Shown piece after piece: positions 6,651 through 45,939 of a stretch of 53,216 bases of DNA. The translations under genes and the position numbers were made by a program. Source of the DNA: Pirellulaceae bacterium (GTDB taxonomy: Bacteria; Planctomycetota; Planctomycetia; Pirellulales; Pirellulaceae); NCBI GenBank assembly GCA_030681235.1, contig JAUXWY010000493.1:1-53216 (forward strand), given 5' to 3'. The notes under the pieces are model-generated. The model was given only the letters and a program-made list of their open reading frames with translations. It had not been told where the DNA came from and did not search any database. Each line of letters opens with the position of its first letter. The stretch's first letter is position 1.

Positions 6651-7943
6651 ATGATCGTTGATTCACGAAAAGTTCTTCCCCGTGATTTTCGGCTACAGCA
6701 TGGGCATACCAGAGCGTCTGCTATTAGCCCAAGGACTGCCAGCATTCTCGTGTGTTCTTTCTTCGCTGACGCGGTCTGTTTTTTTGGACTATTAGTTGCC
6801 GTCGTTAGCCGGATGTTTGGCGAAGAGAGTGGAAATACAGTATTGCCGAAGGTCGTGGGTTTAACTCAATTCAACAAGAACTATCGGTTGCTGGCCTCGC
6901 TTCCGGTCTGTTTCATTACAGCGTGCATCCAGGTTGATTTTGCAACGGCTCAAGATAAGCGCGCCGTTAGCGAGATTCGAATTCCCGAGCTTGACCAGAC
7001 GAAGATCGTTCGGTCACGGGCTTCTGAGTTAAGCCTAGCTGCTGGTGAAGAGACCTCGGTAGAGTTATCCATTATTAATCAAACTTCTAATGCAATTCAC
7101 TTTGATAAGGTGAAGACGAGCTGCAATTGCAGTCGCCCCGAGGTGACAAAGACGGTGTTTGAGCCGAATGTGTTGACGAAAACTCGTTTGGTCTGGCGGC
7201 CGGCTGCCAACGCCAGTGGTATTGCGTCGACAACCATCACGTTTTTTCACGAAGGGGCGTTAGTGCTCGATTTGATTGTTTACGCCAAGTTGGACGGCAT
7301 GTTGCTTTTGGAGTCACAAGGTATAGGGGAGCGCCAAACGGATGGTTTTGTCGTTTGGGGGATGCCGATAACTTGTACCGAACCGTTGTTGCTTGGACAG
7401 CTTGATGTGCAGTTGAGTACTAGTATGGAGGGGTTTGTAGCCGAAGTTTTAGCGGCGTCTAATCTGCCGGAAGATGTTTTGCATCCTGGACTGAAACGCG
7501 GCGTGGTCAAGTTCTCAGCCCCTCGGGTGTTGCTTGAAGAGAAGGGAGATGTGTTTGGAGAGTTCAAGTTGCTCGCGAGGACGTCTAATGTTGTTATAGA
7601 GCGGCGAACCGTATTTTCTTCGCGCCCGTTGTTAAAAATATCGCCTGCGATGGTTGTGTTTCGTGATGACGAGGAAGATTCTGATCGGGTTGTCGCAACC
7701 GTCATGGCACAGTTGGATCGCGCCTATTTTCCACCTGAACGGACAACGGAGATTAAGTTTGAGGCCTTCATGAATGGTCACGCTGTGCATGTTGAATCCA
7801 AACATCTTGGAAACAGTGTCTATCGATTCAAGTTGCATGCTTTGCGGAAGGAGGTGAAAGTCGACGAAGAGTACGAATTCGTTTTCGGTGCCGGTATTGA
7901 TGCTCGGCACGCAAAATTTGCTGGTGTTGCATACAGGGAATAG
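6651..7943 (+). CDS. Secreted or anchored DUF1573-like protein (cassette A, gene 1)
   Basis: 430 residues from the ATG at 6651, chosen for GGAG about 10 nt upstream; a GTG frame from 6606 has no such site. Two hydrophobic segments lie near the N terminus (around residues 30-55 and 80-100), the second ending in a signal-like FATAQ, so the protein is exported or anchored after an unusual N-terminal extension. Residues ~115-210 form an Ig-like domain with the DUF1573 hallmark (NQTSNAIHFDKVKTSCNCS), then a second beta-rich half. DUF1573 domains resemble ASH/PapD-like Ig folds, often in scaffold or chaperone roles. A diverged paralogue in the same gene order is at 43051. The last 24 codons were duplicated with the next gene. 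Function unknown. Confidence 0.82.
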   Translation: MIVDSRKVLPRDFRLQHGHTRASAISPRTASILVCSFFADAVCFFGLLVAVVSRMFGEESGNTVLPKVVGLTQFNKNYRLLASLPVCFITACIQVDFATAQDKRAVSEIRIPELDQTKIVRSRASELSLAAGEETSVELSIINQTSNAIHFDKVKTSCNCSRPEVTKTVFEPNVLTKTRLVWRPAANASGIASTTITFFHEGALVLDLIVYAKLDGMLLLESQGIGERQTDGFVVWGMPITCTEPLLLGQLDVQLSTSMEGFVAEVLAASNLPEDVLHPGLKRGVVKFSAPRVLLEEKGDVFGEFKLLARTSNVVIERRTVFSSRPLLKISPAMVVFRDDEEDSDRVVATVMAQLDRAYFPPERTTEIKFEAFMNGHAVHVESKHLGNSVYRFKLHALRKEVKVDEEYEFVFGAGIDARHAKFAGVAYRE

Positions 7944-8511
7944 TCGGGGCTCCGATTTTATTTGGTGAAAGGGTTTGATGATGAATTTATTGACCGGGTT
8001 GATGTTTTTGACAGTGTTTTTTACTCAAGATCCGGGGGGAGGGGATCCACCACCGCCTCCCGTACCGCCGCCAGATTGCTGGAAACCAGTTGGCAGTGTT
8101 CATTGTGCCGATGAAAGTGATTTCAACGACGGAACTCCTGTGACTCACGCGAATTGTAACTGGAATCCAGATGCTTCAAATTTTGAGGGATGCGTAGTAG
8201 TTACAGAAGAAGTGCTTGTCCGTTGTCCGAACGACTATGCGGAAGTCTACGCCGATGATCCGTTTGTATATGAAGGATTTGAGCAAGTCACGGATGGAAC
8301 TGGAAAGTCGACGCAAGGCACGAACCAAAAAAAATGCTACATTCGGTACGGTTGCGTCTGTATGCGGGTTGACTTGGAGCTTTACCCACAACACACGAAC
8401 GGAGTCTGCTGGACGTCCACCGAATTGTTTGGTTCGGAGCCACATGAGCATTATTTCTACCGCACACAACCAGTTCCTGTTGGAATTACCTGTGTAGTCG
8501 TACCCGAATGA
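7869..8511 (+). repeat. Tandem duplication, unit 1
   Basis: The unit runs from the last 24 codons of the DUF1573-like gene through the first ten-cysteine gene, and is repeated at 8513-9158 with an offset of 644 nt. Long stretches are identical, including the SD-bearing leader GAAAGGGTTTGA. Coding differences are scattered substitutions without frameshift. Confidence 0.92.
7981..8511 (+). CDS. Small secreted ten-cysteine protein (cassette A, gene 2a)
   Basis: 176 residues. The ATG at 7981 is preferred over 7978 because its spacing from GAAAGGG (7 nt) equals that of the duplicated gene. A short hydrophobic signal (LLTGLMFLTVFFTQ) is followed by a Gly/Pro-rich linker and a compact mature domain with exactly ten cysteines, beginning DCWKPVGSVHC and ending VGITCVVV. 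An even, high Cys count in an exported protein suggests five disulfides. It matches no family I know. It starts 37 nt after the DUF1573-like stop, so an operon is likely. Candidate roles are a surface structural protein, a binding protein or a toxin-like effector; the sequence does not decide. Confidence 0.82.
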   Translation: MNLLTGLMFLTVFFTQDPGGGDPPPPPVPPPDCWKPVGSVHCADESDFNDGTPVTHANCNWNPDASNFEGCVVVTEEVLVRCPNDYAEVYADDPFVYEGFEQVTDGTGKSTQGTNQKKCYIRYGCVCMRVDLELYPQHTNGVCWTSTELFGSEPHEHYFYRTQPVPVGITCVVVPE

Positions 8512-8512
8512 T

Positions 8513-8587
8513 GAGTACGAATTCGTTTTCGGTGCCAGTATTGATGCTCGGCATGCAAAATTTGCGGGTGTTGCCTATAGGGAATAG
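8513..8587 (+). pseudogene. Duplicated 3' tail of the DUF1573-like gene
   Basis: 24 codons plus TAG that repeat the end of the gene at 6651-7943, starting EYEFVFGASIDARHAKFAG, with a few substitutions (Gly to Ser is one). It lacks any start and lies between the two ten-cysteine genes. It marks the left border of the tandem duplication and has no function of its own, except possibly as leader sequence. Confidence 0.9.
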
Positions 8588-8624
8588 CTGGGGCCCCGAT
8601 TTGACTTAACGAAAGGGTTTGACG

Positions 8625-9158
8625 ATGCATTTATTGACCGGGTTGATGTTCTTGACAGTGTTTCTTACTCAAGAACCGGGGGGCGGGATGCCAGAACCGC
8701 CGCCGCCGCCGCCAGATTGCTGGAAACCAGTTGGCAGTGTTCATTGTGCCGATGATAGTGATTTCAATGACGGAACGCCGAGGACCCGCCCGAATTGTCA
8801 CTGGAATCCAGATCATTCTAATTTTGAGGGATGCGTGCCACTTCCAGAAGAAATGATTATTCGTTGTCCGAACGACTATGCGGAAATCTATGCCGATGAT
8901 CCGTTTGTAAATGAAGGACTTGAGCAAGTCACAGATGGAACTGGAAAGTCGACGCAAGGCTCGAACCAAAAAAAATGCTACATTCGGTACGGTTGCGTCT
9001 GTGAACCGGTTAACTTGGAGCTTTACCCACAATTCACGAATGGAGTCTGCTGGACATCCAGTGAATTATTTGGTTCGGAGCCGCATGATCACTATTTCTA
9101 CCGCACACAACCAGTTCCTGTTGGAATTACGTGTGTAGTCGTACCGCCTGGAGTCTGA
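8625..9158 (+). CDS. Small secreted ten-cysteine protein (cassette A, gene 2b)
   Basis: 177 residues, the tandem paralogue of the gene at 7981. GAAAGGG lies 7 nt before the ATG. Order: signal (LLTGLMFLTVFLTQ), Pro-rich linker with a run of prolines, then DCWKPVGSVHC. All ten mature cysteines are kept, while loop residues differ (DGTPRTRPNCHWNPDHSN here against DGTPVTHANCNWNPDASN). Preserved cysteines and reading frame argue that the second copy is functional, perhaps with a diversified surface. The next gene starts 144 nt downstream. Confidence 0.82.
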   Translation: MHLLTGLMFLTVFLTQEPGGGMPEPPPPPPDCWKPVGSVHCADDSDFNDGTPRTRPNCHWNPDHSNFEGCVPLPEEMIIRCPNDYAEIYADDPFVNEGLEQVTDGTGKSTQGSNQKKCYIRYGCVCEPVNLELYPQFTNGVCWTSSELFGSEPHDHYFYRTQPVPVGITCVVVPPGV

Positions 9159-9302
9159 CTAGGCAACGGTTGGGAAGTGAGCGGCAGAGCGTCAGCTTCG
9201 CGCCGCCCACCTTTCTACAAGCCACGCCTATAACGAAAGCCGCGTTGAAATGATTCGCTGCATGAGTGGCGATTCCTTCGAAGTTCATTTATGAGGTGCC
9301 GT

Positions 9303-10421
9303 ATGCGAATATTAATGTTGCGAATCAAAGAATATTGGGTAAATCGCTTGATCATTGCGTCATTTACATTTACATCGTTGTTTGTTTACATCGTTGCGTC
9401 TAACGGTCAAACCAACGAAGGATCAATGAGCCGTTCGCAGAGTTCGGATGAGAAACGGCTAGATCCGACGATTTCAAGCTTGATGGGCGTGTCTGTCGGT
9501 TACGCAGAAGCGCTGGATCGTATTGATGTTCTGGTGCGTTCCAGGACTTCTTTTGATAGTGTGGGGAAAAAATTTGATGTAGGTTTGTCGGGGTTAACGC
9601 GTGATACGGAGGCTTTCTATCGGCTTACATTGGACTTCCAATCGAAACGCGGGCAATGGATTGACGAAAAGTCTGTAAAACAAGTCTTTTTCCCTTCAGA
9701 GAACCTAGCGGAACCACAAAATTCTGATCAACGCTATTTTGCTGCAGGAGGTGTTGATCATGCTCTCAATGCCTATTTAGTTATTTCGAGCGATGGGGCT
9801 GCCGCCGGGCCGATATCTGAACTTCGAGACTCGGAACATGTGTTTTGGGGGCATTTACGTGTTAAAGATGTTCGTTCTTTGTTTGGCGGTCTCGCCGGAG
9901 GTTTGGGCCTGAGTTTTGAGGAATCCAAACGGCAGATCGGTACGGGAACTACGCAAGAAATACGTAGATCAAGACTGCCTAACGGAAACCAGTTGATGGA
10001 ATACTCGACCAAAGTCACTGAACGGGGGTATGTCGACCTTCGTTATGAATTTCAAGATAAAACTGACCTGATCGTAGGGTACAGCTATACTAGCCATCCA
10101 CCACTTGGTAGCGCTTCCGCTCCAATGTTACTGAACAGTATTGATCGGATCGACTGGAAGCAGATTAACGATATTTATGTTCCTATCTCAATCCGGGGAA
10201 AGAAAATGACTCAGTTTAGTGTCGGTGGTAAGAATGACGGGGGACTTGAGTCGTTCGTACACACGCTGCATTGGTTTTCCGTGAATGAGGAGGTTGCCCC
10301 CGAAGTATTTTTGCCCCATGAAGTTTTGCGGGACGAAATCCGATGCCGCGAACTATTGGATCCGAAGCTGACAGGCAGTGATAAAACTTTCTCGGCAAAG
10401 AAAGTGGGCACGCCTGACTAG
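9303..10421 (+). CDS. Secreted protein with LolA-like features (cassette A, gene 3)
   Basis: 372 residues from the ATG at 9303, chosen over 9291 because GAGG lies 6 nt upstream. A signal or anchor segment (RLIIASFTFTSLFVYIVAS) precedes a mature protein with alternating beta strands. It shares motifs in the same order with the 347-residue protein of cassette B: FYRLTLDF / LFRLVFDF, INDIYVPISIRGKKM / INNQYVPVSARYMNT, and LHWFSVNEEVAPEVF / LHWFSFGQDLPDDLF. An N-terminal helix followed by strands recalls LolA-type lipoprotein-binding folds, which is an impression only. Conserved position after the ten-cysteine gene suggests a shared task such as handling or anchoring the small protein (inference). 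Confidence 0.8.
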   Translation: MRILMLRIKEYWVNRLIIASFTFTSLFVYIVASNGQTNEGSMSRSQSSDEKRLDPTISSLMGVSVGYAEALDRIDVLVRSRTSFDSVGKKFDVGLSGLTRDTEAFYRLTLDFQSKRGQWIDEKSVKQVFFPSENLAEPQNSDQRYFAAGGVDHALNAYLVISSDGAAAGPISELRDSEHVFWGHLRVKDVRSLFGGLAGGLGLSFEESKRQIGTGTTQEIRRSRLPNGNQLMEYSTKVTERGYVDLRYEFQDKTDLIVGYSYTSHPPLGSASAPMLLNSIDRIDWKQINDIYVPISIRGKKMTQFSVGGKNDGGLESFVHTLHWFSVNEEVAPEVFLPHEVLRDEIRCRELLDPKLTGSDKTFSAKKVGTPD

Positions 10422-10442
10422 ATCGTAGTGAGCGGTTACAGA

Positions 10443-10988
10443 TTATTCGATTGATGCCGGAGCTTCCGTCGCGTAGCCGGCATGTAAGCGTTCGAGCGAT
10501 TGGTGGAGTTCAATGCTGTGTCTTTGATCGTAGTTGCCGGACATCATGCGGTAGAACAGTGTGTTGGGCAAAGTGCCGGTGGCGGTCCATTGGACTTTTG
10601 ATGTGGTCGGTGTGGTTGGAGTCGCAGTAAGAGTGCCACGCATGGGTGGAAAAATTGGGGAAATGAATTCGTAGTCGACCGTGCCGGCAGTGGCGTCCGC
10701 TCCGAGAAGCCGCAATTGTGCCGCGCCACCACGCGGGTCGGTCCATTGCAAGAGTGGGCCGGTTTCGTCCGCGACCAAGCTGACATCCGAGGCCGTCTGG
10801 CCGACGAAGGGCGACCATTGAGTCCAGTTTTCTAGGACTGCAAATTGCCGGTATACTTCGTCCGCAGGGGCCGCGATATCGCTCTCGGCTTGGGATTGAT
10901 AGTTGAGTTTTGCCCCCCAAATCATCGTGATCAACATGCCCGAGATGATCAGCACAAACACCAGGATAATGGTCCATATTGTTTTCAT
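10443..10988 (-). CDS. SRPBCC (START-like) family protein, membrane-anchored
   Basis: 181 residues. An N-terminal membrane span (TIWTIILVFVLIISGMLITM) is followed by a helix-grip domain: SDIAAPADEVYRQFAVLENW near residues 37-56, then WSPFVG, LQWTDPRGG, and a C-terminal helix region TLFYRMMSGNYDQRHSIELH. This matches polyketide cyclase/dehydrase-type SRPBCC proteins, which bind hydrophobic ligands; the ligand here is unknown. It is the intact parent of the fragment at 5897-6056. It is transcribed against cassette A and ends 21 nt after the cassette's last stop. Confidence 0.88.
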   Translation of the reverse strand: MKTIWTIILVFVLIISGMLITMIWGAKLNYQSQAESDIAAPADEVYRQFAVLENWTQWSPFVGQTASDVSLVADETGPLLQWTDPRGGAAQLRLLGADATAGTVDYEFISPIFPPMRGTLTATPTTPTTSKVQWTATGTLPNTLFYRMMSGNYDQRHSIELHQSLERLHAGYATEAPASIE

Positions 10989-11001
10989 CGAGCGGGTTAC
11001 C

Positions 11002-11122
11002 TGGAGCTGCTGTTTCGGTTGGCAAATAAACTTGTGTCGGCCCTCCGGGCCTTTTCAAAAGCCGAGTAACAAACCGGGGCCTAGCGACCCCGGCAAAGGT
11101 TGTTTCGGCCCTCCGGGCCTGT
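11002..11122. repeat. Right direct repeat bracketing cassette A (hairpin-rich part)
   Basis: Matches 6055-6175 in the same orientation. Contains GGCCCTCCGGGCC twice and the CCGGGG/CCCCGG arms. It lies just upstream of the SRPBCC start and just downstream of the treZ stop. Together with 10455-10598 it forms the right bracket of cassette A. Small, non-coding and self-folding, it looks like a REP/MITE-class intergenic element; other genomic copies would settle this. Confidence 0.85.
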
Positions 11123-11162
11123 ACTTGCCACCTGTCGGCCATTCAGTTAGTTGTATGCGACA

Positions 11163-13094
11163 CTAGCCCGGATTGGCAACCGCTGATCGCAGGGTGATGC
11201 GACAACACGAGCCGGTCGGTGGTTCGACCGTGGCCCACGATTGATGGACAATCCCCGATTCGAAGCCCGGTAGCTTCGTGTCGTCCGTTAGCAACCGCGA
11301 TTCACCCGGCGGGATCAACCAACTTTCAATTCGGCAATCAAGTTCCTTTTGGCCATATTCGATTCGATAATAGTGCCGAGACGGGTCGTGATACCACGTC
11401 GCCTTGTCTGGCTCCAACCAACCATCGCCCAATCCCGCGCAGCGAATCCGCAACAGCAACTGATACCAATCCCACACCGCGTGATCCCAGTCGGCAAAGC
11501 TCGGCAGGCGACTGGCTGTGAACGCCTCAGGATCTGACGGCAACCGAGCCTCCGCCCAATCATGATGCGGGTATTCGTGTTGCCGGCCACGATCCACGGA
11601 CTCGCGGAGCCCTGGATCGCCGAAATCCGTAAAGAAGCAGAACGCCGAACCGACGGCGCCTTCTTCGCCCATGAACAGTTGCGGGATTGTCGGCGAAAGC
11701 AATAACAAACCAACGGCCGCTTTTTGCAAGTTGATATTGGTCAACCGGTGGATGCGATGCCCATGCGGATGATTGCCGACACTATCGTGCGTCTGCAGCG
11801 AGACGACCAAGTGGGTGTGGACTTTTCCGTTCGTCGTCGCGGGCTCGACGCGAGCATATTCGCGAGCTTGACTGCCTTGATAAACAAAGCCACGCTCGAG
11901 TGCGATCAAGACATCGCCGCCGCCGCGATAGTCGCGATTGGTGAGTTTCACATGCGGTGCTGCGTGCGAATACACGGCGTGCATGAAACAATCGGCCCAT
12001 TGGGCGGAATACGAATTCACCAACTGCGGATCAAAGACGTTCGTCTCGGCGATCAAGTGAATCGGGCGGCGAGCTTCTGATTCCCAGGCGCGAACGACCC
12101 TTGCCACTTCTGCGGTGATGTTTGGGCTGGACCCATCAAATAAATAATGAATCGCGTCCAGACGCAAGCCATCAAAGTGATAGTCTTGTAGCCATTGACG
12201 CACGTTATCCAAGATCCAAGCACGGACTGGCTGACAGCGGCGGCCTGAATAGTTGAACGCCTCGCCCCACGGGGTTTGAGTTTTTGAAGTGAAGTACGGC
12301 GCGAACTCGCGGAGATAATTGCCCTCGGGCCCCAAATGGTTGTAGACCACATCCAAGAATACGGCCAAGCCCTGTCGATGACATTCGTTGATCAGTTCTT
12401 TAAGTTCCGCCGGCGTTCCATAAGCGGCTTTGGGCGCATACAAATGCACGCCATCGTAGCCCCAATTCCAGCGGCCTGGTGTCTCGGCCACAGGCAGCAA
12501 CTCGATCGCCGTCACGCCAAGTTCGCGCAGGCGAGGCAGTTGCGATACGAGCTCGTGATAGGTTCCACTGGCTGTGGCACAACCTACATGCAGTTCATAA
12601 ATCACCAAGTCGCGCGCAGTGACTCCGTTCCAATCTTGATCTGTCCAAGTGAACGGCGAATGGTCCACCAACTGGGACGGCCCGTGAACACCAAACGGTT
12701 GAAATCGGCTGCGCGGGTCGGGACGAGCGTCGCGATGATTCAAGCGATAAAGATAAAAGCCGATGTCGCCAATGTCCGGAACAACCGCCGCGAAGTACTC
12801 GGGTGACGTGGCTCTCGTGACTTGAGCCGTATTCGTATCGTCGGCCAACGTCGTCGGTGCCAGCGGAACGATCGTTCCTCCCGCAACCGACCAGTGTGCT
12901 TGGTGGGAACGCTTGGCAAACGTCGCCGCCATGGACTTGGGGAAGAGGATCAGGTCGACTGATTGGCAACGCGGCGCCCACACTTTGAAGCCGACTGAAT
13001 TTGACGCAAGAAACGTCGTGCCAACGGGCAACTGTTCCAAAGAAGTAGTCGATGGACAAGGACCGAGAATGGTTTGCTGAACTTCGTGATTCAC
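11163..13094 (-). CDS. treZ: Malto-oligosyltrehalose trehalohydrolase
   Basis: 643 residues from the GTG at 13094. A TTG at 13148 is also open but lies inside a dispersed repeat, so I prefer GTG. An N-terminal carbohydrate-binding-type domain (GFKVWAPRCQSVDL) is followed by a GH13 barrel: AIELLPV, DVVYNHLGPEGNYL, GLRLDAIH (nucleophile Asp about 313), HLIAETN (acid/base Glu about 350) and QTHDSVGNH (Asp about 437). The enzyme releases trehalose from maltooligosyl-trehalose, the step after TreY. No treY is in the window, so its partner must be elsewhere. Length fits the family. Cytoplasmic. Confidence 0.94.
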   Translation of the reverse strand: MNHEVQQTILGPCPSTTSLEQLPVGTTFLASNSVGFKVWAPRCQSVDLILFPKSMAATFAKRSHQAHWSVAGGTIVPLAPTTLADDTNTAQVTRATSPEYFAAVVPDIGDIGFYLYRLNHRDARPDPRSRFQPFGVHGPSQLVDHSPFTWTDQDWNGVTARDLVIYELHVGCATASGTYHELVSQLPRLRELGVTAIELLPVAETPGRWNWGYDGVHLYAPKAAYGTPAELKELINECHRQGLAVFLDVVYNHLGPEGNYLREFAPYFTSKTQTPWGEAFNYSGRRCQPVRAWILDNVRQWLQDYHFDGLRLDAIHYLFDGSSPNITAEVARVVRAWESEARRPIHLIAETNVFDPQLVNSYSAQWADCFMHAVYSHAAPHVKLTNRDYRGGGDVLIALERGFVYQGSQAREYARVEPATTNGKVHTHLVVSLQTHDSVGNHPHGHRIHRLTNINLQKAAVGLLLLSPTIPQLFMGEEGAVGSAFCFFTDFGDPGLRESVDRGRQHEYPHHDWAEARLPSDPEAFTASRLPSFADWDHAVWDWYQLLLRIRCAGLGDGWLEPDKATWYHDPSRHYYRIEYGQKELDCRIESWLIPPGESRLLTDDTKLPGFESGIVHQSWATVEPPTGSCCRITLRSAVANPG

Positions 13095-13142
13095 AAGCGG
13101 TTGCTTCGTTCCTGGGCCGACGAAAAATAGAAGCCGTTCACA

Positions 13143-13253
13143 GCCCAAACGCGGGCCGCCGCAAATTTGGCGGTTAGCACAGTTTTCAACGCCCAGTTGG
13201 AATTCGCCAAATCTGCTCTGGCCACGCGGTTAACCAACTTTGTTTCGCTCGTG
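13143..13253. repeat. Dispersed repeat copy 1 with inverted arms
   Basis: Shares a patchwork of near-identical blocks with 48313-48427: the AAACGCGGGCCG block, GCAAATTTGGCG (13161-13172), CGCCAAATCTGC (13205-13216), and a GGCCACGCGGTTAACCAACT-like block. The two 12-mers are inverted repeats with one mismatch, so the element can fold back on itself across about 32 nt. It lies directly upstream of treZ. It encodes nothing obvious and looks like a REP/MITE-type element. Confidence 0.75.
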
Positions 13254-13303
13254 AACGGCTACGGAAAATACATGGCAAGTTGGCTCGCCATCCGGATCTG
13301 CGG

Positions 13304-13600
13304 TCAGGATATCGAAGTGACTCGCAAGTCGTCGATCACTTCTACCAATTCGAAAGCGTATCGAATGGACTCGAGCACCAGTTGCTTGTGGTAATAAGAG
13401 TCCAAGATTCCATTAAGAACAATCCGGGGGCCCAACGCATCCACGGTGATTTGGCGCATGTCCGAGTAAGCCGCCACTGCCAGAATCTCGCGAAATTCTC
13501 GCGCGATGTGATCCACCAATCGTTCGGTTTCGAACGTTTGGCTCTCCGAGATGGCCACAGACGAGTTGGTAAAGGGTGAAGTTAGAAGTTCGGTATTCAT
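13304..13600 (-). CDS. BON-domain-like small protein
   Basis: 98 residues with a strong GGAGGGA site before the ATG. The second half has the BON pattern: ITVDALGPRIVLNGILDSYY, then KQLVLESIRYAFELVEVIDD and LRV. BON domains bind phospholipid or periplasmic partners, but no signal peptide is visible, so this protein is probably cytoplasmic or exported in another way. It is monocistronic, between treZ and ftsH. Confidence 0.7.
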   Translation of the reverse strand: MNTELLTSPFTNSSVAISESQTFETERLVDHIAREFREILAVAAYSDMRQITVDALGPRIVLNGILDSYYHKQLVLESIRYAFELVEVIDDLRVTSIS

Positions 13601-13810
13601 GGTGTTCCCTCCGTGTGTGGTTGCCGTGAACCGAGGTCATCCATGACGCGGCTTGCCATGAACGACCGTTTGATTGTTGACCATATCCGGCCGTTTGTCA
13701 ACAAAACATTGGCTTTTTAAGAGCAAACTATTGTATCTGCTAGCACTGTTTTGGTCCCGGGATGTTCGGTGCCCAGTGCTACGCGGCGAAAACGCACGAA
13801 GTTCAAGAAT

Positions 13811-19361: not shown

Positions 19362-19383
19362 TCGGACAGATCCCGCCGATCCG

Positions 19384-19713: not shown

Positions 19714-19772
19714 CGTTCTTTAATTCCATCGTAAAAAGGATTGCTTGAAGTTCAGGCACTCACCTGCCAGCA

Positions 19773-35797: not shown

Positions 35798-35803
35798 CAG
35801 TGA

Positions 35804-37403: not shown

Positions 37404-37549
37404 ACTTGCCCAGTATCCCCAAACCAGCCAACCAAGCCGAAATACAAGAAAGCACAAGGAATCGCTGATTTATCAATCATCGTTTGTGTGATTCGTGGCT
37501 TTCGTGAATATGAAAACTGAGATATGAGATATGAAATTTGAGATCGGAA

Positions 37550-37576
37550 ATTCCCTTGCCATCCATTCCTCTGCCA
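37550..37576. repeat. 27-nt repeat, right of the Uma2 pseudogene
   Basis: Second copy of the block at 36765-36791 (two mismatches), preceded by the simple-sequence run GATATGAGATATGAAATTTG. The stretch 37404-37659 around it holds no gene. Confidence 0.8.
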
Positions 37577-37659
37577 TGATCGATCCAGGCGGCCTGCAAT
37601 TCTGCACTTTCGATTTTTTTTCCGATCATGTCGTTCATGTTGACCCGACCGACAACTCG

Positions 37660-38682: not shown

Positions 38683-39974
38683 AAGGCCACTCGATGCAAC
38701 CCGCTGTGGAGATAATTCATGGTCTGAACCGTAATAAAGATCGTGACATCACGTACCAGTCGCGATTCACTGCCCACGGCTCGCAGTTTGAGTTCGCGGC
38801 AACGATCGATCACCTCGCGGACGACCAAGGAGACCGTATATCGATTCTCGCCCGTCCAGCTGGTCACTTGCCGTTCGATCTCGGTTTTGTGCTTTCGCAA
38901 GAGCGCCGATGCTTGCTGCTCGACAAAGTCGTCCAATTTGCCTTCTTGCCGCCGGATCTCCTTGACAGACGCATCCTCGTTCTTTTCCGGAAAGAACAAT
39001 CGTAGCAGGTCGCGGTCGAACGGCGAGGGCAGGTCCATCTCGTACCGAGCCCGTCGCTGTTCGTAATGTTCGCGCAGCGTGCGTTTGATTTGCTTCAGCG
39101 GCTCGATCGTTTTTCGCGAGACGACCTTGGGCTTGGCTCCCGCAATCGAGCCCATCAGTTCGTCGACGTACTCCAGTTTCTTCAACGCCGGCCATCCGCG
39201 ATACTGGGCCCGCCAGCGACCACCCGGCTTGAGCCATACCGCAAAAGTTTCCGCAAAATCTTCCGCCGGATGGCTTTGGGCATACCAGGGCTCCAAATGC
39301 ACGACGTAACGGCGGCTCTTGGGATGCGGGCGATAATATTCGGGATAGGGATCGCTGTAGCTGCCGAACACCTCGCGGTATCGCTTGCGACGATGTAGCC
39401 AATAAGCCGTATCCAGGGCATGCCCCGTCTCGTGCCGCAAGATCTTCATGCACCACTCGTCGGAACCGCCCTCGACCTCCAGCATCAGCTTGCGTTCCAA
39501 TTGGCACAGCCGAGGATGAGCCAGATAAAACGGAACCGCGATCCCCGGTATGCCATCGGGAGCGAACCATTCGTCGCTGAGCCAAAAATGCGGTTTGAAG
39601 TCCAATCCGCGAGCCGCCATTTCCTCGTAGAGTCGCTCGATCTTGGCCACCAGCGAGGATTTTTCGAGATGCAATGGCAGATCGCACATCCGGCAATCCA
39701 GCAGTTGGTCGTCGGTCAAATGGTCCCAATCCAGCTTTTTCCCAGCCGTCCACCAAAGGTCCAGCTTGCCGTTTTCGGTAGTGCGGCGACCAGGCGAGCT
39801 TCCGTGGGTGGGTGTTTTACCCGCTGGCTTCAGGGCCGCTGCTGCACCACCGCCGGGACTAGAACTGCGGGGACCCGAACGCTTTTTCTTCGCGACGGAC
39901 GCCGCCACAGTCGCGCGGCTGGCCCGCTTGGGCGACGCGCTACTAAGTTTCGGCTTCCGTTGCGATTTGGCCAC
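38679..39974 (-). CDS. Putative zinc metallopeptidase
   Basis: 431 residues. The first ~70 residues are low-complexity Ala/Ser/Lys/Pro, followed by a folded domain. CDLPL and the Cys pairs near 94-99 may bind zinc. The active-site helix is HETGH (181-185) in KILRHETGHALDTAY, with the third ligand probably in HPAEDFAETFAVWL; the layout fits the putative zinc-binding peptidase (Mx) type. RRYVVHLEPWYAQSHPAEDF sits before it. It is coupled by ATGA to the ATP-grasp gene, suggesting joint work on a peptide, perhaps making then trimming it (inference). Confidence 0.82.
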   Translation of the reverse strand: MAKSQRKPKLSSASPKRASRATVAASVAKKKRSGPRSSSPGGGAAAALKPAGKTPTHGSSPGRRTTENGKLDLWWTAGKKLDWDHLTDDQLLDCRMCDLPLHLEKSSLVAKIERLYEEMAARGLDFKPHFWLSDEWFAPDGIPGIAVPFYLAHPRLCQLERKLMLEVEGGSDEWCMKILRHETGHALDTAYWLHRRKRYREVFGSYSDPYPEYYRPHPKSRRYVVHLEPWYAQSHPAEDFAETFAVWLKPGGRWRAQYRGWPALKKLEYVDELMGSIAGAKPKVVSRKTIEPLKQIKRTLREHYEQRRARYEMDLPSPFDRDLLRLFFPEKNEDASVKEIRRQEGKLDDFVEQQASALLRKHKTEIERQVTSWTGENRYTVSLVVREVIDRCRELKLRAVGSESRLVRDVTIFITVQTMNYLHSGLHRVAL

Positions 39975-40179
39975 GCCAGCACTCGCTCATGGTACAGGAA
40001 CACAATTGAACCTCTTGACTCTAGCACGTTTTGATGAGAATTCAATTTGCCGTCCGGTAATTTGCGCGGATTGCGAAGACTCGTCGAATTGCCAATTGGC
40101 GGTTTCCCCTGAAACTCGGTCGGTTACAATAAGTCGGGGTGCTGTATGTCGCGATAACAGAAGTGAGGGAGCTTGAATA

Positions 40180-40452
40180 ATGGTTCAAAACACAATCAAC
40201 ACCTCAACGGCCATATTGGTTCGTGCGTTCAATACGGGACGGGCGGAAATGAGCCCGGAACTTGCGGCCTATTTGCTGACCGTAAAACTTGATCCCGGCG
40301 ACGCGGAGCGGGCGAACCAACTAGCTCAGAAAGCTCGCACTGGCACATTAACGCCCAGTGAAGAATGCGAGATTGATGAATATCGCCGAGTTGGCCGAGT
40401 TATCGAGACACTAAAGCTGCGTGCTCTAAATGCAATAAAAGCATCACGATGA
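40180..40452 (+). CDS. Small protein of the HNH-nuclease pair (decayed copy)
   Basis: 90 residues; GAGGGAG lies 8 nt before the ATG. Mostly helical and charged: RAEMSPELAAYLLTVKLDPG, then NQLAQKARTGTLTPSEECEI and DEYRRVGRVIETLKLRALNA. The same plan (hydrophobic N-terminal part, L-T/A-x-x-E-E-x-E-x-D-x motif, then a helix with KxRAxxA) is seen in the 80-residue protein at 47809. Its stop overlaps the ATG of an HNH stub as ATGA. A partner or immunity-like protein for the nuclease is the working idea; function unproven. Confidence 0.65.
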   Translation: MVQNTINTSTAILVRAFNTGRAEMSPELAAYLLTVKLDPGDAERANQLAQKARTGTLTPSEECEIDEYRRVGRVIETLKLRALNAIKASR

Positions 40453-40517
40453 ATCAGGCCTTGTTGGATTTGATTTACCACCGAGCGGGTGGTTATTGCG
40501 AATACTGTCACTTATGA
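40449..40517 (+). pseudogene. HNH endonuclease stub (first 22 codons)
   Basis: Starts at the ATGA overlap with the small gene and reads MNQALLDLIYHRAGGYCEYCHL, then TGA. This is the usual start of an HNH nuclease, with the CxxC of the zinc ribbon (CEYC; CAYC in the intact gene at 47393). The rest of the gene, including the His-Asn-His core, is absent; the TGA overlaps the ribD start. Probably a deletion joined the HNH start to ribD. Confidence 0.75.
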
Positions 40518-41650
40518 ACCACGATCATGAAATCTGGATGCGACGGGCCTTGAGTTTAGCGGCTCAAGGACAAGGCCGAGTCGAACCGAACCCGATGGTC
40601 GGCTGCGTCTTGGTCCTCGATGGCGAAATGATCGGCCAGGGTTTTCATCGGCAATTCGGGCAAGCCCACGCCGAAGTCGAAGCCATCAACGATGCGAAAG
40701 AGCGAGGCCACGACCCACGCGGCGCGACGGCCTATGTGACCTTGGAGCCGTGCAGCCACTACGGCAAGACGCCACCTTGCTGCTTGGCTTTGATCGAAGC
40801 CCAGGTCCGTCAAGTCGTGCTGGCGACCGTCGACCCCTCTCCACATGTCGCTGGCCAAGGGATCAAACAACTGCAAGCGGCCGGGATCGAGGTGCAGGTT
40901 GGGGTGCTGGAGGCCGAAGCTCAAGTGCTGCTGGGACCATTCCTCAAGCGTCTACGCACCGGTCTACCATGGGTGATTGCCAAATGGGCGATGAGCTTGG
41001 ATGGGAAGATCGCCACTCGGACGGGTCACAGCCAATGGATCAGCGGCCCACCCGCTCGTGCCTTTGTCCATCAACTGCGTGGCCGGATGGATGGGATCAT
41101 GGTCGGCATTGGCACGGCGCTGGCAGATGATCCGGCGCTCACGGCTCGTGTGGAAAACGGCAAGACGCCGGCCCGTGTTGCGACGAGGATTGTGGTGGAT
41201 CGTCATTTGCGATTGCCACTGGACTCGCAGTTGGTCCGCACCGCTTGTGAAGTTCCGGTCTTGATCGCTTGCGAATCCGGCGTGAATCCAAGTCATCGCC
41301 AGCAACTTGCAGCGGCGGGTGTAGAAGTCTGGTCAGCTCCCACCGCAGCGAACAGCGTTTTTGATTATTCCGACTTCGTGCGAACTTTGCTAATCGAACT
41401 CTCTTCGTGTGGCATGACGAACATCTTGGTCGAGGGCGGCGCGTCGCTGTTAGGAAACTTGTTCGATCAGAACTTGGTTGACGAACAATACGTCTTCGTC
41501 GCCCCGATCATCCTCGGCGGAACCAACGCCATTTCCCCAGTCGGCGGACTGGGGCTTGAAACAGTGCCCCAGACGGGTTCCGCGAACACCAAGCCCCATC
41601 GCGTCTCCCATCAAGTCTTGGGGAACGATGTTTTGATTCACGTTCATTGA
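40514..41650 (+). CDS. ribD: Bifunctional riboflavin biosynthesis deaminase/reductase
   Basis: 378 residues from the ATG at 40514; an alternative Met at residue 9 precedes RRALSLAAQG, the common RibD start. Deaminase half: NPMVGCVLV, zinc site HAEVEAI (H52, E54), PCSHYGKTPPCC (C80, C89). Reductase half: KWAMSLDGKIATRTGHSQWI, GIGTALADDPALTAR, ILVEGGASLLGNL. It converts the pyrimidine intermediate of riboflavin synthesis in two steps. The only rib gene here. Its start overlaps the HNH stub (ATGA), and it has no clear ribosome binding site of its own, so it may depend on coupling. Confidence 0.95.
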   Translation: MNHDHEIWMRRALSLAAQGQGRVEPNPMVGCVLVLDGEMIGQGFHRQFGQAHAEVEAINDAKERGHDPRGATAYVTLEPCSHYGKTPPCCLALIEAQVRQVVLATVDPSPHVAGQGIKQLQAAGIEVQVGVLEAEAQVLLGPFLKRLRTGLPWVIAKWAMSLDGKIATRTGHSQWISGPPARAFVHQLRGRMDGIMVGIGTALADDPALTARVENGKTPARVATRIVVDRHLRLPLDSQLVRTACEVPVLIACESGVNPSHRQQLAAAGVEVWSAPTAANSVFDYSDFVRTLLIELSSCGMTNILVEGGASLLGNLFDQNLVDEQYVFVAPIILGGTNAISPVGGLGLETVPQTGSANTKPHRVSHQVLGNDVLIHVH

Positions 41651-42147
41651 GTCGTTGGCCCGCGTCACCGCTCAATACTCGTTACTTGGTAAACTAAACT
41701 GTGCCGCAACATAACATTCCCTTTCGGAAAACAGTACAATTAGGGTACACCGCCGCGATCATGTGCACCCTGATAAACCAAGCGGCAATAATAATAAGGT
41801 TGTCAATGACTGTTTCGTAATTCTCTCAGATTTGGGGGCCCGCCAGGGTTTGCGAGGCCCTCGACGTTAGTGCTCTTGGGTACAGAGCGTCCGGGCTTGC
41901 GCGCGTGAGTCGTTGCGGTCTCGGTTGAATTCACTTGCTAAAAAAGTCTATTCCTCGACCGCTTCCTCTGGGGCTGACGCGTGCGTCTAGTGGTGAATCC
42001 TGGGCTCCACCCAGATGAACTCGGTGGCGGCCAGGTCTGTGCCTCGACCGCATTCCAAGCAGAGGTGTTCTGTTCCGCCACCGCCGACCTTGTTGTCGAC
42101 CTTGGTGACGGTGGGGCGATGATTCATCACTACGCGCGAGACGCAGG
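41651..42147. other. Intergenic region after ribD
   Basis: About 500 bases without a convincing gene. It contains one copy of a 47-nt imperfect repeat (41873-41919; CTCTTGGGTACAGAG start) found again at 42273-42319. On the minus strand a 46-codon frame (about 41987-42126) ending in CLECGRGTDLAATEF has a CxxC and looks almost protein-like, but it lacks a ribosome binding site and I do not call it. Confidence 0.5.
41873..41919. repeat. 47-nt imperfect direct repeat, copy 1
   Basis: Begins CTCTTGGGTACAGAG and continues with a CCGGRCTTGCG block to GTTGCGGT. It recurs 400 nt later at 42273-42319 in the same orientation with scattered mismatches. Non-coding. Confidence 0.7.
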
Positions 42148-42180
42148 AAAATCCCGCCGATTGACTCGGCGGATTTTTTC
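42148..42180 (+). terminator. Intrinsic terminator
   Basis: CGCCGA (42155-42160) and TCGGCG (42166-42171) pair with a TTGAC loop, extended by flanking bases (AAATCC/GGATTT with a bulge), and are followed by six T. This is the most textbook terminator in the window. It lies 500 nt after ribD and may end a transcript now lacking its gene. Confidence 0.78.
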
Positions 42181-42272
42181 GGTTTCTCGCTACATCAGCG
42201 GGCCCGGGATTTGAAGGCCGTAGAATTGGGCTTGCTTCAGACACGTCCGCAAGTAGGCCGAACGGGGGCTGA

Positions 42273-42319
42273 CTCTTGGGTACAGAGTGGCCGGACTTGC
42301 GGGGGTAAACTGTTGCGGT
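42273..42319. repeat. 47-nt imperfect direct repeat, copy 2
   Basis: Second copy of the block at 41873-41919. It runs straight into the left bracket of cassette B. Confidence 0.7.
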
Positions 42320-42342
42320 TCCCAGATTGGCCATCGTATTTG

Positions 42343-42540
42343 GAATTGTCGGAGTCGCAGCGTGAAACTTGGCAGGAAATCCATCAGGAAATGGAAACCC
42401 GCTACTGGGAACTCATGAAATCACACGCCGAATCCGTGCAAAAACATTCGGAAGAACTCTCGGGGATGAACGCAGTCCTTAACGACACCCAGCGCACGAA
42501 GCTCGATGTGATATTTGGCCCATTTGTGAACGATCGTTGA
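42343..42540 (+). pseudogene. Truncated helical gene, Spy/LTXXQ-like end (left copy)
   Basis: An open frame encodes LSESQRETWQEIHQEMETRY, MKSHAESVQKHSEELSGMNA and VLNDTQRTKLDVIFGPFVND, then TGA. The paired Q-R/E helices and the LNDTQRxKL segment recall periplasmic Spy/CpxP-type (LTXXQ) proteins. The normal N terminus and signal peptide are missing; upstream codons have poor composition. It is repeated, more damaged, at 46010-46200. Confidence 0.6.
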
Positions 42541-42570
42541 CGTCGCGTTCGTCGAGCCCATCATTGCGTG

Positions 42571-42657
42571 ATGGTTCATATCCAAGACAAAACCCTAGAA
42601 CTTCGCTCGTTCACGTTGGAAGATCAGTTGTTTGACACGGTCAGGTTGCAGAAGTAG
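42571..42657 (+). CDS. Short conserved ORF in the left repeat
   Basis: 28 codons, MVHIQDKTLELRSFTLEDQL and a short tail, then TAG. The right repeat encodes nearly the same peptide (29 codons), and several differences are synonymous or conservative (TTC/TTT, CGG/AGG). It could be a gene end or a real micro-ORF. Too short to be sure. Confidence 0.3.
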   Translation: MVHIQDKTLELRSFTLEDQLFDTVRLQK

Positions 42658-43050
42658 TAGACAATATTCAATTGAATCAAATAGACCCGACATGATTGGT
42701 CGGGATTCCGTTTGAACTTCGAACCTTACTTGGTCCACATAACAGCACAAACGAGATTCCAGTCCACGTCACGTTTCTCAAATAACCAAGTGTCCAGTCC
42801 GGTACCACACTTTTTCGGTGCGGTGTTTTCGGGCGAATGGCGCGAGGAACGGCGTCCAATTACGGGGGATTTCGTGGAGTTTTCGCATCATCGTCCCGTT
42901 GGGCCGGATCGCACGTATCGCAGACCTCGTTTAGTCGGGCGGTTTGAAGCCTTGACTTTCATGTTCTATCGGTAAAAAATTCAACGGGTTAAGAGCTCTC
43001 AGGTTGTTCGAGCTCTCAGGTTGTTCGAGAATTCGCAGTGAGGAGCAGGT
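42658..43050. other. Upstream region of cassette B
   Basis: 393 bases with no gene I can support. An AT-rich left part is followed by a stretch with mixed frames, then the 17-nt tandem repeat at 42993-43026 and the ribosome binding site GAGGAG at about 43039. It presumably holds the cassette B promoter. Confidence 0.5.
42993..43026. repeat. 17-nt perfect tandem repeat
   Basis: GAGCTCTCAGGTTGTTC occurs twice in a row and is followed by a third GAG, ending 24 nt before the ATG of the cassette B DUF1573-like gene. It could be a protein-binding site in the leader, or a simple duplication. Confidence 0.92.
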
Positions 43051-44310
43051 ATGAATCGCATTAGAGTTGATCTGGAAGCGGTTTCCTTGGTTAGTATCGT
43101 GTGTCAGGGTATCATGCTCGCGAGGTATCGCTTGCGTGTACTTACCGTTACCGCTTTGTGTTTGTGGGCGTTGAATTCTGTTGAGCAGGACACTTCTGAA
43201 CTGCCGAAGAAGTCCGACGGAGTCGAGTCACGCGACAATGAAAAAAAGGCCGCTGAAGAAGAAATTGCGATTGATTGCCATGCGCTGATCGAGCATCGTC
43301 CGACTAACTTTGATCCGGATTTTTTGGTCGCAAAATTGGACTTGCCGTCTTTGGATGGCGGTAAGAAATACCGCTTGAACATCACACTTGTAAATCCATT
43401 TGAATCGTCAATTCAATTTTCTGGAGTTAGCGTCAGCTGTGGTTGCGCGAAATTTGTCGCGGAAGGCAGGGAGATCCCTGCAAACGGTCAAGCGGAATTT
43501 GTGATGCACCTCGACGTACCGAATCAGATTCCAACAGGTCGCGGAGTTCAAGCGGCAAAATTCTCGGGACTTGATCCATCTAAAGACGTGCTAATGCTCC
43601 GAATCGAATACGACGTCAGGAATGTCTTCGCGTTCACACGAGATCGCGTTCTTGTTGAAGTCCCGAAAGCACAGGATATTGTCGTTGTCAGTTTACCATT
43701 TAGGATTATCGCGCCGATCACTCAGAACGACTTAAAATTAGAACTAGGCAAAGAATTAAGCGATTTCAGCGCCAAACTTCTTTTTGACGACAAAAATTCG
43801 GAGATCGGATATGTTCAAATTGAGGCCGCTCGTAAAGTTATTCCTCGGCTTGGGATAGTTGAGGAAATTGTGTTGCGGCACGCCGGAGGAAAGATTGAAT
43901 CTCGAACAGTTCTTCATCTCACTCACCGGGCGATTTTTACACTTCGCCCGGAGTCACTTCGCTTAATCTACGATAGTGAGTCTGAAACTTACCAAGCGAT
44001 GGCAATGCTGAAGGTTCCGGTAGCCGAGGAGTCTGAGGCGAATGATTCGGAAAAACTAGTCGATGGAGCTGACCGGAAAGGAGGAGTCGTCAGGGAGCGT
44101 GTCCCGCCAAAGGTCGGTCTCAGGATTGGAGATGAGGTTGCCAACGTCGTCGTAACACGACGCGGCACTACCGATATTTACCAATTGACTATCCGCTACG
44201 ATAGTCCTGAGAGAAAGAGCTCAAGCGATAAATTGGATTTACGATGGAAGATCGATGTGAATGGTGTGGAGCAAGTTATTGAGTCCTACGCCATTTTTTC
44301 AAACCGTTAG
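43051..44310 (+). CDS. Secreted or anchored DUF1573-like protein (cassette B, gene 1)
   Basis: 419 residues from the ATG at 43051 (GAGGAG upstream). About 22 residues precede the hydrophobic signal (RLRVLTVTALCLWALNSV), an extension also seen in the cassette A protein. An acidic/lysine-rich linker (ESRDNEKKAAEEE) is followed by a DUF1573-type Ig-like domain with NPFESSIQFSGVSVSCGCAK, where cassette A has SCNC. Further beta-rich segments follow (FRIIAPITQNDLKLELGKEL; LRLIYDSESETYQAMAMLKV). It is the same type and position as the gene at 6651 but too diverged for nucleotide similarity by eye. Role unknown; scaffold or chaperone for the next product is an inference. Confidence 0.83.
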   Translation: MNRIRVDLEAVSLVSIVCQGIMLARYRLRVLTVTALCLWALNSVEQDTSELPKKSDGVESRDNEKKAAEEEIAIDCHALIEHRPTNFDPDFLVAKLDLPSLDGGKKYRLNITLVNPFESSIQFSGVSVSCGCAKFVAEGREIPANGQAEFVMHLDVPNQIPTGRGVQAAKFSGLDPSKDVLMLRIEYDVRNVFAFTRDRVLVEVPKAQDIVVVSLPFRIIAPITQNDLKLELGKELSDFSAKLLFDDKNSEIGYVQIEAARKVIPRLGIVEEIVLRHAGGKIESRTVLHLTHRAIFTLRPESLRLIYDSESETYQAMAMLKVPVAEESEANDSEKLVDGADRKGGVVRERVPPKVGLRIGDEVANVVVTRRGTTDIYQLTIRYDSPERKSSSDKLDLRWKIDVNGVEQVIESYAIFSNR

Positions 44311-44326
44311 GATGAGGAGAAGTGAT

Positions 44327-44752
44327 ATGTTGAAGTATTTGGTTATTTTGCTGCTAGTTTTTTCACCTACGATGGTTGCTGCGCAAACGTGTTGGGTCGA
44401 TGTAACTGCCAGTTGTGACGATTTGGCGATTAAACAAATAGGAATTGTCGGGGGCTCATGCGGTAGTAAAAACTGCATTCCAATCGGCGCTGGCTTCTTT
44501 TGTCCACTCGGTGTGGGGCTAGACGTTAGCATCCCGGGTAACGTCTTCCAGGACGTTAAAAAGGCTGGGGCGATGGTTGCAGGCTTCACCGGCACTTCGG
44601 TCCTGATGAATCCTTTTGAATGCGGGAGAGTTCATGTATGCCAATGCACGGGTGCAGGAGCTTGCACAAATAGTCCTCCTGGCATTGGAGGTCAATTCAA
44701 ACCAACCGAGACTTCGACAAATCCTAACAGTACACCGTGCACGGGTATTTAG
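44327..44752 (+). CDS. Small secreted ten-cysteine protein (cassette B, gene 2)
   Basis: 141 residues from the ATG at 44327 (GAGGAG upstream), 16 nt after the DUF1573-like stop. A clean signal peptide (YLVILLLVFSPTMVAAQ) is followed by a mature domain starting TCWVDVTASC. It carries exactly ten cysteines, as do the two cassette A proteins, and the first is likewise followed by Trp. Beyond that the sequences differ (GGSCGSKNCIPIGAGFFCPL, ECGRVHVCQCTGAGAC), so the cysteine count and position in the operon are shared rather than the fold being proven. Probably disulfide-rich and exported. Confidence 0.8.
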   Translation: MLKYLVILLLVFSPTMVAAQTCWVDVTASCDDLAIKQIGIVGGSCGSKNCIPIGAGFFCPLGVGLDVSIPGNVFQDVKKAGAMVAGFTGTSVLMNPFECGRVHVCQCTGAGACTNSPPGIGGQFKPTETSTNPNSTPCTGI

Positions 44753-44895
44753 GCGTTTCTTGTTTGCTTACATCAGTCCGAACCAGCCATCATCGAACGA
44801 GTTATCAGGTGATGGTTGGTTTTCGCTACAATACTCCAACGCTGGGCAGGGACAATCCGTTTCGCCTATTATTACTTTATTACTCCGAGGTTTCT

Positions 44896-45939
44896 ATGTA
44901 CTCGTTCTGCTTGGCCATTTTCGCGTGTTGCTTTAGTTTGATCCAATGCACTATTTCGTTTTCGCAAGAGCTTTCTGCGGATCGCGAGCATGCCGCCGGA
45001 GTGATCGAGTCCTATCTTGCAAATTTAGAGAGTTGGGAAAAAGGCGATGTGTTAGTTCGCATGACGTCGAACGGTTCTGGTCGATATTTTAGAGTGGAAG
45101 ACCAAGGTGGATTTAATGTTCCTCCCAAGTTTGTAGAAGGCCCTGACTCTAGTAGTCTAACCGTTCAAGAGGACCTTCTTTTCCGGTTGGTTTTTGATTT
45201 CGAAAAGCAGAAGACGTTGATTATTCACCGGAATCGAAGCGAACGTCAAGTCTTCGATGGCTTGGACAAAGAGTCGATACCACGCAAGGTTGCAGGCGAC
45301 GCTCAAGTACTTCTAAATGATCCAAGCCGCGGTATGCTGTCCCGGGTTACTAATGGGCGAGTTCAATCGTTTGAAGCAATCAACACGGTTTCCAAGGTAC
45401 TCCAAATGCAAGCACCCGATATAAGAATTTTAGGAATTGAACCGATTTCAAGGAGTTGGGATACGGAATATCTTCAAGATCGACTCAATGGACTAGCAGT
45501 CGTTGATAAGATTTCCGAAATCACTAACGTCGCTAAGCAATCCTATCAATTGACGTACCTTGGCGAAGGTGAAGAAAAGGGATTGATCCGGAGATTTGAT
45601 TGGGATCTTGAGCGGAATCTCCCTGTCAAGTTTTGGCGAGGTACACTTGAATGTGGAACATGGTGTGAAGGGGCTGTTCGTTGGCAATCGATTAATAATC
45701 AATATGTACCCGTGTCAGCCCGATACATGAACACCAGTGGCGATTCTCAAGACAGTCGATTCTACTTGGTCGAAACTGAAACTACGGTTGATCTCCATTG
45801 GTTTTCATTTGGCCAAGATTTGCCCGACGATTTGTTCGAAGACTCCGTTCTTGACGACCATAAGAAACTAAACGAAATGCTAGACGAAGACGTATTTAAG
45901 GACATGGGTGGGGACCGAGGTGAAGAGAGTCGGAAGTAG
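44896..45939 (+). CDS. Secreted protein with LolA-like features (cassette B, gene 3)
   Basis: 347 residues from the ATG at 44896 (GAGG 6 nt upstream); the longer open frame to 44737 overlaps the previous gene and is spurious. The signal (CLAIFACCFSLIQCTISFS) ends near SQE. The mature part begins with a helix (ADREHAAGVIESYLANLESW), then KGDVLVRMTSNGSGRYFRVE-type strands and QVFDGLDKE, a layout like LolA-family proteins. It shares ordered motifs with the protein at 9303 (LFRLVFDF, INNQYVPVSARYMNT, LHWFSFGQDLPDDLF), which makes homology secure despite low overall identity. Confidence 0.82.
   Translation: MYSFCLAIFACCFSLIQCTISFSQELSADREHAAGVIESYLANLESWEKGDVLVRMTSNGSGRYFRVEDQGGFNVPPKFVEGPDSSSLTVQEDLLFRLVFDFEKQKTLIIHRNRSERQVFDGLDKESIPRKVAGDAQVLLNDPSRGMLSRVTNGRVQSFEAINTVSKVLQMQAPDIRILGIEPISRSWDTEYLQDRLNGLAVVDKISEITNVAKQSYQLTYLGEGEEKGLIRRFDWDLERNLPVKFWRGTLECGTWCEGAVRWQSINNQYVPVSARYMNTSGDSQDSRFYLVETETTVDLHWFSFGQDLPDDLFEDSVLDDHKKLNEMLDEDVFKDMGGDRGEESRK

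Follow-up and report, generated by a model that had tools for sequence, protein, structure and literature searches.

The described systems closest to the genes analysed here each resemble them only in part. The DUF1573 family has a CxC motif as its hallmark; for a link between this family and the NVEALA peptides of Bacteroidetes we found no support in the openly licensed PubMed Central literature. The YTV domain of Planctomycete cell-wall proteins has its own model in Pfam. A table in the available part of the source places DUF1573 among the selenoproteins, its motif being UGC, and candidate peptide clusters in which small cysteine-rich precursor candidates accompany MauE appear in the available part of PMC7794033. 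Among openly licensed PubMed Central papers we found no description of a three-gene unit composed of a DUF1573-type gene, a gene for a small cysteine-rich protein and a gene for a LolA-like protein.

The window, that is, the whole stretch of 53,216 nucleotides that was analysed, contains two such cassettes with the same gene order on the same strand, as the initial annotation had described, and in both all genes lie on the plus strand with short gaps between them. Cassette A begins with a DUF1573-type protein, predicted to be exported like the other cassette products, whose CxC motif reads SCNC (gene 1, 6651..7943, longest ORF from 6606). It continues with a ten-cysteine exported protein (gene 2a, 7975..8511) and its tandem copy (gene 2b, 8619..9158), both with a TTG start and 83% identical, and ends with an exported homologue of the LolA-fold protein of cassette B (gene 3, 9291..10421). 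Cassette B is made of a DUF1573-type exported protein with the motif SCGC (gene 1, 43051..44310), a single ten-cysteine exported protein (gene 2, about 44327..44752, longest ORF from 44261) and an exported protein with a predicted LolA fold (gene 3, about 44896..45939, longest ORF from 44737). The small proteins had been said to contain exactly ten cysteines each, which is correct when the count starts at the first conserved cysteine, and the motifs quoted for the gene-3 products were found in both proteins. These two products are homologous (E=1e-6 in one pairwise comparison) rather than unrelated. Between A and B the three proteins show 16–19% identity in multiple alignments, and the cassette DNA matches listed above 100 bp include none between A and B. 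The initial annotation had called the two unrelated by eye at the nucleotide level; a recent duplication is ruled out. The statement that the cassette occurs twice holds for the window but not for the source genome, where we found six three-gene units, one that lacks a cysteine-rich gene and two that are truncated at the end of a contig.

We then looked at the distribution of the unit. Relatives of the third gene were present in at least 31 of 242 genomes of the family Pirellulaceae, and the unit in at least 13 of its 68 genera; the genome-wide counts are lower bounds, the best 8, 15 or 5 first-look candidates per genome having been scored, depending on the search. Among the matches listed, a DUF1573-type gene lay upstream of 36 of the 42 near-full-length third genes; of the other six, one is perhaps fused to DUF1573 and five have no such gene. 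Cassette members made up part of the training set for the profile that located the upstream genes; Pfam's own DUF1573 model, an independent check, matched 25 of the 36 at E<=0.01. This adjacency count left out third-gene homologues with E above 1e-5 or with fewer than 220 profile positions covered, a filter that dropped L114, L115 and L118 even though DUF1573 lies upstream in them, as well as L099 and L101, which have less than 1.2 kb of upstream sequence. It includes the near-duplicates L029, L081 and L082, removed for the distance test, and L084, whose unit is interrupted by a transposase gene (here and below, the labels ribD, clpC, kdsA, signal peptide and transposase were assigned by reading the sequence, without a family search). 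Two fused LolA-like/DUF1573 proteins (L040 and L043) were considered as members of the third family and set aside, since profile comparison gave a probability of only 3.9%.

Distances of gene 1 mirrored those of gene 3 (r=0.78 over 33 units), also within the genus of the source genome (r=0.94 over 9 units), and those of gene 3 mirrored those of gene 2 (r=0.60 over 20 units), each correlation being matched by 0 of 2000 shuffles. Such genomes contain many DUF1573 and LolA-like genes, the source genome alone giving 15 DUF1573 matches, and the genes of the unit might thus be chance neighbours drawn from large exported protein families. The adjacency and the mirrored distances make this hardly credible, as does a look beyond the family: at six loci there with weak relatives of the third gene, the same strand had no DUF1573-type gene within 5 kb upstream or 2.5 kb downstream. 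The families had been expected to occur together rather than apart, as a conserved unit and not a recent duplication; adjacency, mirrored distances and the spread over genera all bear this out.

For gene 1, the Pfam DUF1573 model (PF07610) gave E=1.9e-4 in cassette A and E=0.012 in cassette B, both under the curated cut-off. The N-terminal extension attributed to these proteins, which had been described as DUF1573-like, depends on the choice of start codon. The CxC motif is kept in 32 of the 36 cassette homologues: it is present in all 25 units that have a cysteine-rich gene or a remnant of one and, among the 11 units without a recognisable one, is kept in seven and lost in four (p=0.064 for the association once three units of one genus count as one).

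The small proteins form a family with a common cysteine scaffold, usually of ten cysteines: C-x5-C occurs in 24 of 25 sequences, and 19 of 25 have exactly ten cysteines when the count begins at C1. Their alignment (A9) holds 16 of 22 sequences, short, near-identical and some other sequences being left out. A search with it listed 21 matches at E<=1e-3, of which 16 are the alignment members, matching by construction, and the other five also adjoin a DUF1573 gene. By sequence the family matched no Pfam family or solved structure, and structure prediction (pLDDT 35) gave no usable fold. A simple pattern check found a lipobox-like string near the N-terminus in 4 of 21 small proteins and in none of those tested from the window. 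Being small, cysteine-rich and presumably exported, the product might be a building block of the cell envelope like the YTV-domain wall proteins, with the other two proteins cross-linking or placing it. None of the 16 members, however, matched the Pfam YTV domain at E<=1, and the patchy presence, the decaying copies and the one move between species (see below) are unlike a structural component; we regard this explanation as unlikely. Far less probable still is a metal-handling system. Cysteines and CxC motifs can bind soft metals, but in an exported protein with an even number of mostly well-spaced cysteines, as here, disulfides fit better.

The model of the gene-3 protein of cassette B is LolA-like, with the half-barrel of the LolA fold, in agreement with the initial annotation; the LolA structures matched it with low TM-scores (0.27–0.46) and good E-values, and RseB and MucB were among the structural matches. 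Ten third-gene members gave no match to Pfam LolA. Since a recognisable cysteine-rich gene is missing between genes 1 and 3 in 11 of 36 units, and in some others is broken next to an apparently intact pair, the DUF1573–third pair may also act alone. It could be the functional core, acting in the envelope as a carrier or sensor (RseB and MucB have the same fold), with the cysteine-rich protein as an optional client, ligand or regulator. Nevertheless, the remaining 25 pairs do have a cysteine-rich gene or remnant, its distances run parallel to the pair's (r about 0.6), and cassette A and C302 each have two copies of the gene, so that this reading seems to us rather improbable.

The unit is co-inherited, has moved horizontally at least once and belongs to one Planctomycete family. 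One unit and a copy from a different species share 97.8% identity across 3 kb; for the clpC and ribD of that species, identity is 84% and 72%. A congener has no unit at locus B. The cassette is mobile, fast-evolving, multicopy, often decayed, variably placed and exchanged between species. Its mobility is absent from the initial annotation. Both window cassettes are bracketed by direct repeats. To the left of cassette A, two adjoining pieces (148 + 121 bp, 5908..6175) are 92.6% and 96.7% identical to right-hand pieces at 10451..10598 and 11002..11122. Cassette B has a 307-bp repeat on its left (42347..42653), which partly matches DNA close to a 455-residue gene that occupies this locus in G003, and an 89.9% identical copy on its right (46013..46318). 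A random interval of either cassette's length is bracketed in this way about 2.4% of the time. Direct pairs of at least 100 bp bracket just 4 of 37 other loci (L029, L030, L097 and L103), and such repeats are therefore not a general mark of the unit. For a mobile element with terminal repeats there was little sign either: by eye, no common signal was apparent where the exchanged segment begins and ends. We also discarded a plasmid, phage or defence origin: the DNA of cassette A had no match in plasmids, the third protein of cassette B had none in phages or plasmids, and none of six cassette proteins matched PADLOC or PHROGs models at E<=0.01.

C39-type peptidase genes occur at three related loci, two above the cut-off and one just below it, and there the small protein has a GG before its first cysteine. 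Two other DUF1573 genes of the source genome have MauE-family genes nearby. These C39 and MauE links come from loci other than the window cassettes, whose seven genes include no Pfam match to a C39-type peptidase, a transporter family or MauE.

The initial annotation had proposed for the first and third proteins a part in folding, carrying or anchoring the disulfide-rich product outside the cell, a role that would fit the CxC motif, the C39-type genes at related loci and the MauE-family neighbours. That the cassette exports a disulfide-rich product by means of dedicated partners is, in our judgement, about evenly balanced. Ordinary signal peptides would take all three proteins across the inner membrane; the small protein would be the product, with its cysteines forming about five disulfides. 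Its dedicated thiol-disulfide or holding factor would be the DUF1573 protein, working through CxC, and the LolA-fold protein would bind it and pass it on, toward either the outer membrane or the medium. In a sister type, a leader with a terminal GG is probably cleaved by the C39-type peptidase. The unit occurs in several copies that diverge fast and often decay, sits at variable loci and is exchanged between species; for these reasons its product is most likely directed at other organisms or at the environment, as an effector or bacteriocin-like protein, rather than serving a housekeeping role. More tentatively, the cassette could be an undescribed mobile exported-peptide system, in which a fast-evolving disulfide-rich effector has its own two-protein maturation apparatus: an Ig-like, not thioredoxin-fold, DUF1573 protein performing disulfide chemistry through CxC, at which its selenocysteine relatives hint, and a LolA-fold carrier of a non-lipoprotein client. 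If gene 1 turned out to encode a thiol-disulfide enzyme that lacks a thioredoxin fold, it would solve an old problem in a new way, and a product active on other cells would represent secreted effectors of a new class, from a little-explored phylum.

The cassette adds a disulfide-candidate protein family with a common cysteine scaffold, and gives a concrete genomic context to Planctomycete LolA-like proteins and to DUF1573, a family of unknown function named in just three of the openly licensed PubMed Central papers searched. It resembles C39 peptide export in the three related loci with their C39-type gene and GG, and differs from it in that the window genes lack both the peptidase and a transporter family. 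With the MauE clusters, as the available part of PMC7794033 presents them, it shares the MauE-family neighbours of other DUF1573 genes in the source genome, whereas the window cassettes have other partners and no MauE match. Like the YTV-domain proteins, its products are cysteine-rich, Planctomycete and, by prediction, exported; unlike them, they have no YTV match in 16 members and are cassette-borne, patchy and mobile. From the LolA/LolB/RseB superfamily the third genes differ in having no Pfam LolA match in ten members, and from Lol lipoprotein sorting in that no lipoprotein client is evident, lipobox-like strings being confined to the few small proteins noted above. Finally, gene 1 matches the DUF1573 domain and has its CxC, the UGC selenoprotein form being on record in the available part of the source, and differs from the family at large in that the window's two members score below the Pfam cut-off and the gene belongs to a defined three-gene unit.

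Cassettes A (6651-10421) and B (43051-45939) lie where the initial annotation had placed them, with the same gene order on the plus strand: a DUF1573-type gene (gene 1), a gene for a small exported ten-cysteine protein (gene 2) and a third gene (gene 3), whose product is predicted to adopt a LolA-like fold. Gene 2 is doubled in A, the tandem products being 83% identical to each other. The Pfam DUF1573 match of gene 1 was weak in A (1.9e-4) and marginal in B (0.012). The third proteins are related, as had been proposed (E=1e-6 in a single pairwise comparison), and no A-B pair stands among the listed DNA matches longer than 100 bp. A cassette occurring twice is correct for the window; the genome as a whole holds six full units, namely A, B and those on contigs C364, C78, C302 (with two small genes, as in A) and C116. 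In addition, contig C278 carries genes 1 and 3 only, C511 a gene 1 near its end and C298 a gene 3 fragment at its start. A profile built from the two third proteins gave nine matches in this genome; counting it, 4 of 60 genomes had a match. With a ten-member profile, at least 31 of 242 Pirellulaceae genomes and at least 13 of 68 genera were found to match; across the phylum the figure was at least 6 of 392 drawn genomes, our own counted, and the four outside the family gave weak matches. At six loci with weak third-gene relatives outside Pirellulaceae, no DUF1573-type gene was found on the same strand.

The three genes form a unit. We looked at the surroundings of the third-gene matches in the family, where 42 near-full-length third genes had at least 1.2 kb upstream. 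A same-strand DUF1573-type gene preceded 36 of them, which bears out the adjacency of the families; five had none, and for one a weak match points to a possible fusion. At E<=0.01, the Pfam DUF1573 model matched 25 of these 36 proteins. Distances for gene 1 and gene 3 were correlated (r=0.78 across 33 units; within the genus, r=0.94 across nine units, a test made for this pair only), as were those for gene 2 with gene 3 (r=0.60) and with gene 1 (r=0.59; both 20 units); for each correlation, none of 2000 shuffles reached the observed r. It is not uncommon for the pair of genes 1 and 3 to lack a recognisable Cys-rich gene in between (11/36). The CxC motif of gene 1 was kept in all 25 units having a Cys-rich gene or a recognisable remnant (judged by eye at L093, L095 and L097), and was present in seven and absent in four of the 11 units without one. 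This association (Fisher p=0.006; p=0.064 once three same-genus units of the four lacking CxC count as one) is only suggestive. Table passages of PMC9312934 and PMC13188914 give DUF1573 as a selenoprotein family with a UGC motif, a hint that CxC has a redox role.

The small proteins share a cysteine scaffold. C-x5-C occurs in 24 of 25, with another cysteine one to three residues further in 23 (counted by hand); the start is mostly C-x7-C (x8 in A). Counted from the first conserved one, 19/25 have exactly ten cysteines and the rest 6, 7 or 12, and an alignment of 16 sequences has nine invariant cysteine columns. By eye, the stretch before the first cysteine resembles a signal peptide, in many cases ending A-Q or G-Q. 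Searches gave no convincing Pfam family match and, by sequence, no solved structure. In the syntenic pair C78/C21, identity was 31% for the small protein, 49% for gene 1, 43% for gene 3 and 83% for the adjoining kdsA.

In the related ARRANGEMENTS (L104, L114 and L115), gene 1 is followed by a C39-type peptidase gene and then by the small gene; two of the peptidases scored above the Pfam cut-off and one just below. The third proteins of these loci match the family profile at 96% probability and have a transmembrane-like C-terminal segment. Their small proteins carry GG a little ahead of the first cysteine; on its own the motif says little, as several small proteins that lack a C39 gene have GG in their linkers too. 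Other DUF1573 genes of the genome adjoin Cys-rich exported ORFs (C401, C202, C402) or lie near MauE-family genes (C191, C202); passages of PMC7794033 speculate on a MauE contribution to disulfide formation and place it in candidate peptide clusters. The cluster at L036 (C191) combines a 12-cysteine exported ORF, a MauE-family gene and a DUF1573 protein with an additional N-terminal domain, C39-like by eye and without a Pfam C39 match. Family 2 glycosyltransferase-DUF1573 fusions were seen at L046:5725-7416 (minus; C338), where a weak MauE-like stretch separates the two domains, and at L114:450-2546. Proteins of 679-727 residues at L040:5118-7154 (minus), L043:2687-4822 and L041:4160-6343 (C513, C491 and C176) have a C-terminal half containing DUF1573, preceded by an exported half that may be LolA-like (relation to LolA unproven); two have a prepilin-like gene immediately upstream. 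Repeated LTPEQ-like helical motifs mark a set of large exported proteins (L131, a 455-residue gene; L036_7502; L042_4571; L045_6807) that recur close to DUF1573 or Cys-rich genes, and part of one resembles the repeats flanking cassette B.

The unit is mobile. That of C364 is 97.8% identical over 2,983 bp to one on contig C112 of isolate M30B19 (G001), with further stretches at 98.4% over 386 bp and 92.9% over 238 bp, and unlike flanks; in C112 a transposase-like insertion separates the 2,983-bp and 386-bp stretches. Across the three genes, synonymous divergence is 0.02-0.06. Background genes of these genomes, labelled from their sequence, are 84% (clpC, 2.5 kb) and 72% (ribD, 635 bp) identical. 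At locus B, G001 has ribD, about 60 bp and then the gene right of the cassette, and two genomes of the genus (G002, G003) have other genes there; at locus A, the genes of either flank are present in G003 with other genes in between. Above 100 bp, the window's only repeats are the two small genes of A and the pair that brackets each cassette; bracketing repeats are uncommon at other loci (4/37). Fragments, frame-broken copies and interrupted copies account for several of the units. In the decayed unit at L031 (G001 contig C1), the small gene has been lost and the end of gene 1 leads directly into the final third of gene 3. Left of cassette A, a 590-residue membrane-protein-like ORF (4089-5861) had no match in Pfam, NCBIfam or the G003 stretch at locus A, and a short tandem repeat (6498-6560; self-matches of 39 and 31 bp) lies directly upstream of the cassette. 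A stretch of about 90 bp (~41871-41965) is a dispersed repeat of the genus, with dozens of copies at 70-84% identity in G002 and G003.

Altogether, the best reading is that the cassette would be a dedicated export and folding apparatus for a disulfide-rich product facing outside. The data establish the unit, its mobility, the shared cysteine scaffold and the predicted fold of protein 3; we infer that the cysteines pair into disulfides, what proteins 1 and 3 do, how the product leaves the cell and that it acts as an effector. The pairs without a Cys-rich gene in the gap are the strongest point against this reading. This composition was not described in the openly licensed papers searched. The cassette differs from both Lol sorting and C39-type export in lacking the tested defining features of either whole system, and no YTV match was seen in the 16 members scanned; individually, its components fall within, or look like, known folds and families. 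We call it categorically new in composition, with a proposed mechanism of a more familiar sort and a putative function.
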